A stretch of DNA of 64,000 nucleotides from Parafrankia discariae (GTDB taxonomy: Bacteria; Actinomycetota; Actinomycetes; Frankiales; Frankiaceae): positions 155,975 through 219,974 of the forward strand of contig NZ_KB891230.1 of NCBI RefSeq assembly GCF_000373365.1, in the 5' to 3' direction. Each line of letters opens with the position of its first letter. The stretch's first letter is position 1. A program made the translations under genes and the position numbers. The notes beneath the pieces are model-generated. The model searched no databases. It was not told where the DNA came from and saw only the letters and a list, made by a program, of their open reading frames with translations. This document shows, piece after piece, positions 33,733-51,828 of this stretch.

Positions 33733-34156
33733 GACACTCCCGGATCGACAGAGGCTGGGACGAGGCACCCGAGGCAGGCGCCGATTTCGCGACGCGTCTT
33801 CTCGCCAGAGACCGGCGTCACGCGTCAACGAAAGACGAGAAAGAGCAGGAAAGGACGGGAAGGCATTTCCGGGGCACTGTGATGTGGCGACGTCGGCACC
33901 ACGCGTGCCGGCTTTTGTCACGGCTTCCTGCGAGCCAAGGTACAGCAGAGTGAAGCCCCGGCGGAAAACACCGGGGGACAATTACCTGAACGGGTGGGCG
34001 GAGGTCCGCCGACCCGCCCGGGAGTGCTGTTTACCGGGGGCCGGAGCCGATTACCGGGGAAGCCGCCGGCTGACGCGGGGAAGCGCGGGCTGACGCGGGG
34101 AAGCGCGGGCTGAGGGGAGAGCCCCTACCGGGGGGAGCCGCTGACCGGGGCCGCCG
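33733..34156. other. Intergenic region with tandem repeats
   Basis: 424 bases between two minus-strand genes. The left part is the presumed promoter region of the secreted-protein gene and is less GC-rich than its surroundings. The right part holds a 20-bp tandem repeat (34051-34110). No gene seen. Confidence 0.4.
34051..34110. repeat. 20-bp tandem repeat
   Basis: TGACGCGGGGAAGCGCGGGC at 34071-34090 and 34091-34110, preceded by a diverged copy at 34051-34070 and followed by a partial one. Lies just after the stop side of the CapA-like gene. Confidence 0.8.
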
Positions 34157-48553: not shown

Positions 48554-49174
48554 TCAGCGGGTGTCGACGGACACGAGCGCGGCGGCCAGCCCGACCGGGG
48601 TTAGCTGGCCGTCCGCGGTCAGCTCGGAGGCCACCGCGGACAGGGCGACCGGCTCCCGTGACGGCAGCGGGACGGCGTCCGAGAGCGTCCCCAGCTCCAC
48701 CCAGCCGAGCAGCTCCTCGCCGCCGGTCAGGCCGAACACCGCGCGGACCTGGTCGCTGTCGGGCAGCGGCGTCGACTTCCACGCCGAGGCGACGCCCTGG
48801 GCGTGCGCGGCGAGGCAGAGGTTCTGGGCCGCGGCGGCGGCGGACGCGTCCTGCTCGGCACGCGGGACGCGTGCGCCGGGCACCCGGGAGGCGATCACGG
48901 CGATGAGGGCCGGTGAGCGGGTGGCCTTGCCCGCGGCCTTGCGGATGACCGGTTCGGCCAGGCCGCCGACCGCCTCGGCCGCCGCGGTGATGGCGTTCGC
49001 CAGCACCTCGCGCGCCTCGCCGCGGACCACGACGAACCGCCACGGGCGCAGCATCTTGTGGTCCGGCGCGGTCGTCGCGGCGGCGAGCATGACGGCGAGC
49101 TGTTCGTCGGTGGGGCCGGGCTCCACGAGCCGGGTCGCGGTACGTCGGGTCATCAGGCAGGCGAGGGCGTCCAC
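48554..49174 (-). CDS. Nitroreductase-family flavoprotein
   Basis: 206 residues. FMN-dependent nitroreductase fold: RRTATRLVEPGPTDEQLAVMLAAATTAPDHKMLRPWRFVVVRGEARE (FMN-phosphate Arg pair and the central helix), AAAAAQNLCLAAHAQGVASAWKSTPL and the C-terminal LLGWVELGTLSD. PDHKMLRPW resembles the YdjA/TdsD-type branch. Reduces nitro or quinone substrates with NAD(P)H. GTG 49174 follows GGAGC; starting there excludes the 17-bp iterons upstream, which are out of phase with codons. Divergent from marR. Confidence 0.88.
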   Translation of the reverse strand: MDALACLMTRRTATRLVEPGPTDEQLAVMLAAATTAPDHKMLRPWRFVVVRGEAREVLANAITAAAEAVGGLAEPVIRKAAGKATRSPALIAVIASRVPGARVPRAEQDASAAAAAQNLCLAAHAQGVASAWKSTPLPDSDQVRAVFGLTGGEELLGWVELGTLSDAVPLPSREPVALSAVASELTADGQLTPVGLAAALVSVDTR

Positions 49175-49215
49175 AGCAGCTCCATTCGGTTCGGGTTCGC
49201 GTCCGCGCGTCGCGA

Positions 49216-49283
49216 TTCGGCCGACTTCAGCGTTCGGCCGAGTCCGGCGTTCGGCCGAGTCCAACTTTCGGCAGAATTCAGCC
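49216..49283. repeat. Four 17-bp iterons
   Basis: TTCGGCCGA begins at exactly 17-base steps: 49216, 49233, 49250, and (as TTCGGCAGA) 49267. The core TCGGCCGA is palindromic. They lie between the nitroreductase start (49174) and marR promoter. Confidence 0.85.
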
Positions 49284-49349
49284 GGTATCAACCCGGATCG
49301 GTGCCACGCACGCCGGGGCGCCGATCGTTCACTTTCCGCGGACGAGCTC

Positions 49350-49378
49350 TTCCCATTTCACTGAGGCAGCCTCATAAT
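49350..49378 (+). promoter_or_regulatory. marR promoter with 13-bp palindromic operator
   Basis: TTCCCA (49350-49355), 17-base spacer, CATAAT (49373-49378). The perfect palindrome TGAGGCAGCCTCA (49362-49374) lies in the spacer and touches the -10, the classic position for MarR autorepression. Confidence 0.65.
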
Positions 49379-49421
49379 AGATGAGACTCAGCGATCGAGA
49401 GGCGGGCCGTGTACCGGCGGA

Positions 49422-49463
49422 CCGCGCACCACCAGCGGACGCAGGCCGCGCACCACCAGCGGA
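49422..49463. repeat. 24-bp-spaced direct repeat in the marR leader
   Basis: CCGCGCACCACCAGCGGA at 49422-49439 and 49446-49463, between the predicted transcription start and ATG 49477. Could fold or bind protein; or recent duplication. Confidence 0.7.
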
Positions 49464-49476
49464 GAGGACGGTCGGC

Positions 49477-49932
49477 ATGCCCCCACCCGACACCGGCGAT
49501 GAGGTCGTCGACCTGATCCTCGCCCTCGGCCACCAGGTCAGGCGCGGGGTCAACGAGTCGCTGCGGGCCGGCGCCGGCCTGACCCTGCCCCGGCTCAAGG
49601 TCCTGCGGCTCGTCGCGGAGACCGGCCCCCTGCGGCTGCGGGACCTGGCCAGCGCCGTCTCGGTGGCACCCCGCACGATGACCGAGACGGTGGACGGCCT
49701 GGAGGCCGACGGCCTCGTCCGCCGCCAGATCGACCCCGCCGACCGCCGCGCGATCCTGCTGGAGCTGACACCGGCGGGAAAGACCACGCTCGAGACCGGG
49801 CGCGCCTGCGCGTCGGCCGCCGTCCGCCGCTTCACCGACGGGCTGTCGGCGGACGATCGGGCCACTCTGGGCCGGCTCCTGGCGCAGGTGCGGGACAACG
49901 CGGCTGCCGTTAACACGCTGCCGTTACCGTGA
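49477..49932 (+). CDS. MarR-family transcriptional regulator
   Basis: 151 residues, usual MarR length. Winged helix: LTLPRLKVLRLVAETGPLRLRDLASAVSVAPRTMTETVDGLEADGLVRRQIDPADRRAILLELTPAGK, with the wing Asp-Arg-Arg. Dimerisation helices at both ends. ATG 49477 is preceded by AGAGGA at seven bases; the earlier in-frame ATG at 49381 lies at or before the predicted transcription start, so it is unlikely. Probably represses itself, the ABC exporter that follows by one base, and perhaps the divergent nitroreductase. Confidence 0.9.
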   Translation: MPPPDTGDEVVDLILALGHQVRRGVNESLRAGAGLTLPRLKVLRLVAETGPLRLRDLASAVSVAPRTMTETVDGLEADGLVRRQIDPADRRAILLELTPAGKTTLETGRACASAAVRRFTDGLSADDRATLGRLLAQVRDNAAAVNTLPLP

Positions 49933-49933
49933 G

Positions 49934-51055
49934 GTGAGCACCTGGGCGCGCCAACCCGAGGAGGCCACGGTAACCGGAGCTCTCGCGGTGGGTCACGCCC
50001 CCCGCCCCGCCCCGGCCAGCGGGCCCGGTACCGGCACGGACACGGCGCCGGCGGTGGTCGACGTCCACCGGCTGACGAAGCGGTACGGGCGGGTGGAAGC
50101 ACTGCGTGACGTCTCGTTCACCGTGCCCGCCGGAGCGGTGACCGGGTTCCTCGGCGCCAACGGGTCGGGCAAGACGACGACACTGCGGATCCTGCTGGGC
50201 CTGGTGGCCCCCACCGACGGGCACGCCCTGATCAACGGCCGGCCGTACCGCGAGCTGCCCGCTCCGGCCCGCACGGTCGGTGCCGTGTTCGAGCCGGCGG
50301 CGCATCCGGCCCGCACCGGGCGCGACCACCTTCGCTGCCTGGCGCTGCCACTCGGCCTGCCCCGGCGTCGGCGCGGCCCGGCCGTGGACGAGGCGCTGAC
50401 GGCCGTCGACCTCACCGCCGCCGCCGACCGCCCGGTCGGCACCTACTCGCTGGGGATGCGCGGGCGGCTCGCCATCGCCGGCGCCCTGCTGGGGGACCCC
50501 GAGCTGCTCGTCCTGGACGAACCGGCGAACGGGCTGGACCCGGACGGCATCCGCTGGCTGCGCCGGTTCCTGCGCTCGTGGGCGGCCAGCGGGCGCAGCG
50601 CGCTGCTGTCCAGCCACGTGCTCGCCGAGGTCACCCAGACGGTGGACCACGTCGTCATCGTCGACCGCGGCCGGGTGGTGCTGGCCGCGCCCGCCGCCGA
50701 GGTGGGCCGCGGGCACGTCGAGGTCCACACCCCGGAGGCGGACCGGCTGGCCGGACTGCTGCGCCCCGCGGACGTCGTCCGGACCGGCCCCGACGGCCTG
50801 CGCCTGCCGTACGGCCTCGCCGAGCACGTCGGGCGGCTCTGCGCGGCCCACGGGATCCCACTCGTCGAGCTGCACACGACCGGCCCCGACCTGGAGCGGA
50901 CGTTCTTCGACCTGACCGGCCGGACCGGCGACGAGGCACCCGGCCGGATCGACGGCGAGACGCACGGCGGGGCCGGCGACGAGGCACCCGGCGCGGCCGA
51001 TGACGGGGCGGCCGATGACGGGGCGCGCGAGTGGGCCGGAGGCCGGTGGCGGTGA
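49934..51055 (+). CDS. ABC exporter ATP-binding protein
   Basis: 373 residues. DRA/Nod-type ATPase: Walker A GANGSGKTTT, Q-loop VGAVFEPAAHPARTGRDHLR, signature YSLGMRGRLAIAGALLG (degenerate LSGGQ as in this subfamily), Walker B LLVLDEPANGLDPDG, switch His SSHVL. ~40-residue N-terminal and ~50-residue acidic Gly-rich C-terminal extensions. The GTG at 49934 starts one base after the marR stop; GTG 49988 is possible. With the permease below it makes an antibiotic- or lipid-type exporter. Confidence 0.9.
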   Translation: MSTWARQPEEATVTGALAVGHAPRPAPASGPGTGTDTAPAVVDVHRLTKRYGRVEALRDVSFTVPAGAVTGFLGANGSGKTTTLRILLGLVAPTDGHALINGRPYRELPAPARTVGAVFEPAAHPARTGRDHLRCLALPLGLPRRRRGPAVDEALTAVDLTAAADRPVGTYSLGMRGRLAIAGALLGDPELLVLDEPANGLDPDGIRWLRRFLRSWAASGRSALLSSHVLAEVTQTVDHVVIVDRGRVVLAAPAAEVGRGHVEVHTPEADRLAGLLRPADVVRTGPDGLRLPYGLAEHVGRLCAAHGIPLVELHTTGPDLERTFFDLTGRTGDEAPGRIDGETHGGAGDEAPGAADDGAADDGAREWAGGRWR

Positions 51056-51828
51056 CCGAGGCCCGCCCGACCGTCGAGGTCGTCCGCCGGTCCGGCCGCC
51101 CCCGCGGGCGCCGGGGCGCGGGGCCGGGCACGGGCCGGCTGGTCGCCACCGAGCTCCTCAAGATCGCGACGGGACGCTGGCAGCTCGTCGGCCTCGGCGT
51201 CGCCCTGGCGATCCATGTCCCGCTGCTGCTGCTGTGGGGCGCCCAGGCCGAACCGCTTGTCGCCTGGAACGGCCTGCGCTCGCGCTCGGGGTTCCTGCTC
51301 GCCTACGCGATGATGTTCTTCGGGGTGATCCTGGTGACCGGTGAGTACCGGTATCGCACGGTCACCCACGCCTGGCTGCTCACCCCGCGGCGGTCCCGGG
51401 TGCTGGCCGCCCAGGTGCTCACCGTGCTCGCCGTCGGCGCCACCCTGAGCACGGCGACGTTCGCCGCCTGGTGGGCCCGCGGGGCCGCCCGGCACGGCAC
51501 GGCGGCGATGCGCGCGGACCGGCCGGCGGAGCTGCTGTCGGCCTGTGTGATCGTGGTCGTCATGGTGTGCGCGGCCGGGGTGGCCGGAGTGGGGGTGGGG
51601 ACGCTGACCCGCGGCTCGACCGCGGCCGCCGGCGCCATCGCCCTGTCCGGGCTGGCCGAGGCGGTGCTCGACGTGGCCCGCTTCCACGGCCCGGTGACCG
51701 CACCGTTGGGCGTCCTGCTCTGGCCCACCAGCGAGACTCGTGTCTCTTCCCTGCTCGCCGCGATCTCGTGGGCGGTGGTTCTCACCGCCGCCGCGAGCGC
51801 CTCACTGCACCGGGACCTGCCATCCTGA
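51052..51828 (+). CDS. ABC-2-like permease
   Basis: 258 residues, about six TM helices (WQLVGLGVALAIHVPLLLLWGA, LLAYAMMFFGVILVTGEYRYRTV, VLTVLAVGATLSTATFAAWWA and others). The EYRYRTVTHAWLLTPRRSRV segment is typical of ABC-2 type permeases next to DRA-type ATPases. GTG start overlaps the ATPase stop (GTGA) with GGAGG nine bases upstream. Confidence 0.87.
   Translation: MTEARPTVEVVRRSGRPRGRRGAGPGTGRLVATELLKIATGRWQLVGLGVALAIHVPLLLLWGAQAEPLVAWNGLRSRSGFLLAYAMMFFGVILVTGEYRYRTVTHAWLLTPRRSRVLAAQVLTVLAVGATLSTATFAAWWARGAARHGTAAMRADRPAELLSACVIVVVMVCAAGVAGVGVGTLTRGSTAAAGAIALSGLAEAVLDVARFHGPVTAPLGVLLWPTSETRVSSLLAAISWAVVLTAAASASLHRDLPS

Follow-up and report, generated by a model that had tools for sequence, protein, structure and literature searches.

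The 302-nt gap (positions 49175-49476) between a nitroreductase-family gene on the minus strand and a divergent marR-family gene on the plus strand appears, on the best reading, to hold two unrelated elements, an array of 17-bp tandem copies and a TGAGG/CCTCA dyad, that behave oppositely across relatives. Very probably the first arose by recent tandem duplication within a spacer that is not conserved, and the second is a separate, ordinary MarR operator. The array itself is probably neutral, an evolutionary by-product.

The window, by which we mean the whole 64-kb stretch of DNA that was analyzed, lies on a 347 kb contig (C129) of the 7.89-Mb host genome (G000). The nitroreductase-family gene (48554-49174, minus strand) is YdjA-like and matches Pfam PF00881 with E 1.4e-22, as scored on the protein translated from a downstream ATG; its nearest NCBIfam entry, NF008088, is below cut-off. 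We have chosen the GTG at 49172-49174 as its start codon because the aligned position is GTG or ATG in 17/17 orthologous loci and because a GGAG ribosome-binding motif precedes it (49180-49183). The closest named relatives of this protein are those of Parafrankia soli, P. colletiae and Parafrankia sp. EUN1f, followed by Frankia species, which marks the host as an actinobacterium of Parafrankia type. The regulator gene (49477-49932, plus strand) starts with ATG (MPPPDTGDE...), matches PF01047 with E 1.6e-15 and has orthologues in 16 of the 17 loci. Immediately 3' of it, on the same strand, domain searches and synteny place an ABC transporter ATP-binding gene (49934-51055) and, behind that, a probable membrane subunit of the transporter (51031-51828), the match of the latter to PF12730 (E 1.3e-5) being slightly under the Pfam gathering score. 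The sole promoter predicted in the region, TTCCCA and CATAAT separated by 17 nt (49350-49378, plus strand), is a consensus match only and would serve marR; the stretch is almost identical in P. soli. A repeat search also returned a further direct repeat within the leader of marR (49417-49463, plus strand), with two copies of 23 nt spaced by a step of 24 nt; the first-pass annotation of this DNA had not listed it.

The array occupies 49216-49283 and consists of four head-to-tail, uninterrupted copies of TTCGGC(C/A)GA followed by 8 variable bases, starting at 49216, 49233, 49250 and 49267. The four 17-bp repeats and their exact step had been reported in the first-pass annotation and are borne out; the 9-mer given there is exact in only three of the copies, which carry TTCGGCCGA, the fourth having TTCGGCAGA. 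It had also been argued that a repeat whose step cannot be divided by three is not a coding one, and the array does lie outside both genes when the GTG at 49174 and the ATG at 49477 are taken as their starts. Tandem Repeats Finder (TRF) reports 49216-49272 with period 17, 3.4 copies and a score of 79. When the 302-nt gap was shuffled 5000 times with its dinucleotides preserved, a score of at least 79 came up once, and the array is therefore real, beyond what chance produces in unstructured DNA. The 8-base core, TCGGCCGA, is a palindrome in its own right. In the 64-kb window TTCGGCNGA is found 8 times where 2.4 are expected, and the looser form of the paired motif, two copies of TTCGGCNGA, is confined to this gap within the host genome.

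In order to follow both elements across relatives we used 35 Frankiaceae genomes, one per species, in which nitroreductase orthologues at E <= 1e-50 were found in 17, one locus each; gap counts given here cover these 17 loci. A marR gene is adjacent in 16 of them, the exception being locus L050 of genome G008. A separate search for relatives gave 16 loci, 13 of them from Frankiaceae and largely shared with the set of 17; the remaining three (L038-L040), in whose fetched DNA marR has no match, are excluded from the gap counts. The paired pattern TTCGGCCGA-N8-TTCGGCCGA is present in the window's own genome and absent from the other 34, and TTCGGCNGA occurs in 0/15 of the other nitroreductase-marR gaps. 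With the array as a 96-base DNA query against the 35 family genomes, the only strong match is to the window itself (E 3e-44); the next-best matches, at E 0.004 and weaker, were taken as chance.

The closest relative is P. soli (L005), with nitroreductase and MarR proteins 94% and 98.7% identical to those of the window. The 36 nt beside the nitroreductase start and the 41 nt preceding the dyad align with zero mismatches, and between these conserved flanks P. soli has a shorter, different stretch at the site of the array, with which the end of copy 4 partly aligns. The array is also missing from P. colletiae and two further Parafrankia loci, so that the simpler account is that the lineage of the window gained it; judged from these alignments the array was probably acquired there, likely after the split from P. 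soli, an earlier gain followed by loss in P. soli being less simple. Thus, at the orthologous site of close relatives the array is absent or replaced by different sequence, as is characteristic of a lineage-specific tandem duplication.

The spacer in which the array sits varies in length: over the 15 gaps with a matched first dyad, the dyad lies between 17 and 187 nt from the start of the nitroreductase gene. Unrelated arrays occupy the same spacer in three Frankia loci, with units of 18 bp (L053, 5.7 copies, TRF score 160), 20 bp (L052, 2.2 copies, score 69) and 20 bp (L055, 2.0 copies, score 71), giving tandem arrays in 4/16 gaps when the window's is counted. The 18-bp array of L053 extends into the operator dyad. 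On the marR side of L007, TTCACAGATCGCAGC occurs twice at an 18-nt step, where a single related copy is found in L008, a near relative, and the two gaps, of 167 and 149 nt, differ by exactly 18 nt; this duplication was read by eye, TRF giving no call there. The window contains a second non-triplet tandem array, of 20 bp and 2.9 copies, at 34055-34113. The segment around it is 400 nt long here and 316 nt, or 84 nt shorter, in P. soli, and the difference falls around the array. Taken together, the arrays in four gaps, the L007 duplication and the difference at 34055-34113 show tandem duplication to be an ordinary kind of change in these spacers.

Arrays of this type are also common elsewhere in the host genome. 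A TRF survey of 1.264 Mb, comprising the window and 60 further pieces, each 20 kb long and taken from one of six contigs, a non-random sample of ∼16% of the genome, gave 19 arrays of period 17 at a score of at least 60 and 8 at a score of at least 79, the window's own included. At the lower threshold 17 is the commonest non-triplet period (19 arrays versus 12 at 16, 12 at 20 and 9 at 19), although far fewer arrays have this period than 15 (87) or 18 (114). By eye, no common sequence was apparent among the period-17 units listed. Non-triplet arrays with periods of 10-60 and scores of at least 79, in any location, numbered 18 in a first 400-kb sample, 7 of them with at least 3 copies, and 13 in a second sample, 2 of them with at least 3 copies. 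In the first sample these periods tended to leave a remainder of 2 on division by three (14/18, P 0.03); the tendency found no confirmation in the second at the same threshold (8/13, P 0.58) and was dropped. In short, the 17-bp array is a common type of object within its genome.

The dyad behaves differently. TGAGG-CAG-CCTCA (TGAGGCAGCCTCA) at 49362-49374 is separate from the array and falls inside the predicted marR promoter, as had been noted from the initial inspection, and the proposal made there that it is a MarR site gains considerably from comparison. The TGAGG/CCTCA element is present in 16/16 gaps with marR and missing from the single locus without it. All five Parafrankia gaps have the strict form TGAGG-N3-CCTCA, while among the 11 Frankia gaps with marR four have the strict dyad, six have CGAGG as first arm and one, L054, has an overlapping form only. 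A second dyad, CCTCA-N3-TGAGG, is found in all 11 of these Frankia gaps; in 10 of them (L045-L049, L051-L053, L055, L056) both dyads are present and overlap with an 8-bp shift. L056 appears to reach five half-sites. In the one marR-less locus, L050, no marR was detected at E <= 1e-3, and an ABC transporter gene is seemingly next, by eye. A dyad match with fewer than two mismatches is absent from the entire fetched locus, and inspection by eye of the 250 nt upstream of the nitroreductase revealed neither TGAGG nor CCTCA. It appears, then, that marR has been lost from between the nitroreductase and the transporter gene of G008 and that the dyad has gone too, the link between dyad loss and marR loss being based on this one genome. 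As a DNA word the dyad is no commoner in the host genome than its control (4 sites versus 4 control sites for the pattern read backwards), so that a large regulon is not indicated; its support derives from conservation and not from word enrichment. A literature search with MarR, TGAGG and CCTCA gave, among the matches listed, only ones that were irrelevant by title. With a MarR-family gene (PF01047) beside the site, overlap with the predicted promoter, and retention with marR and loss in the single locus lacking it, the dyad is well supported as the likely binding site of the neighboring MarR-family regulator.

Bound at this dyad, MarR would cover the spacer between the -35 and -10 elements of its own promoter and would thereby be expected to keep marR, together with the ABC transporter genes that follow, repressed until a ligand released the protein. 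The divergent nitroreductase might perhaps be repressed as well, a suggestion drawn from the divergent arrangement alone because promoter prediction across the region gave no minus-strand promoter. The array, for its part, probably arose through slipped-strand or unequal-exchange events in the non-conserved spacer, and no binding protein is required to account for it.

The first-pass annotation had suggested that two different regulators, or one with cooperative sites, might act at this gap, and had named absence of the repeat from close relatives as the observation that would indicate slippage with no function; the intergenic alignment finds it absent from them. A function peculiar to the host species is improbable in our estimation, and it would be surprising if the array were a species-specific cooperative operator through which a second regulator acts on the nitroreductase gene. 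The palindromic core, as for the site of a dimer, and the constant 17-bp step are what such an operator would have, and of the minimum of 8 changes among the four copies only 1 falls in the 9-base core, the other 7 being in the spacers of 8 bases. This gives P 0.02 for a register chosen in advance, but with a free register, any 9-base stretch of the unit being allowed, P rises to 0.20 and is not significant. Further, the array is missing in all relatives examined, unrelated arrays occupy the same spacer elsewhere and many arrays of the same period exist in the genome, all of which argue against a regulator site; since the paired motif is found nowhere else in the genome, a regulator requiring the pair would have one target. 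A text search of the literature with TTCGGCCGA gave, among the matches listed, none visibly on a regulator site, by title. No better placed is the idea that duplication in one species created a cluster of palindromic sites now bound cooperatively by a resident regulator, which we would not expect to be true; if it were, such binding would be a second layer of control on the nitroreductase that relatives lack.

Still less probable is a role for the array at the RNA level, with adjacent TCGGCCGA copies pairing into hairpins in the nitroreductase 5' leader or in an antisense transcript. Relative to shuffled versions, the segment 49205-49290 does fold well (plus strand z -3.4, minus strand less so at z -2.2), as expected by construction because the palindrome copies are in tandem. 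The entire sense leader of the nitroreductase (49175-49290), however, folds no better than shuffles (z -0.8), Rfam offers nothing credible (best E 0.53, far under the gathering score), and the predicted marR promoter is downstream of the array, which leaves the array outside the marR transcript if the promoter is right. Both core constraint and RNA folding are thus weak signs of array function. Plasmid iterons are direct repeats of similar length to these 17-bp copies, and the array had been called a set of iterons. That true iterons, sites for a replication initiator, are found here is hardly conceivable, as the array lies among enzyme and transport genes on a contig of 347 kb and the five neighboring proteins scanned include no replication protein; nothing indicates a replication function and the term is a misnomer. 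We therefore retain a recent tandem duplication beside a separate MarR operator as the reading of this gap. The array illustrates that a striking repeat beside an operator may be no more than a neutral by-product, and has little significance beyond that; the conserved dyad is a concrete, testable candidate operator for the MarR-nitroreductase-ABC transporter locus of Frankiaceae.

Both elements resemble known systems. Like the intergenic minisatellites and short tandem repeats of bacteria, which arise by slipped-strand mispairing, the array is head-to-tail and lineage-specific, with diverging copies and many further arrays in the same genome; there is no notable difference, the unit simply happening to contain an 8-base palindrome. 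The dyad is reminiscent of an autoregulated MarR-family operator between divergent genes, with its position in the predicted marR promoter, the divergent enzyme gene and the transporter genes behind marR. Its 13-bp core is shorter than the 16-20 bp that an excerpt of PMC10458429 gives as usual for sites of MarR-like regulators, and in Frankia it differs from such an operator by the second, overlapping dyad shifted by 8 bp.
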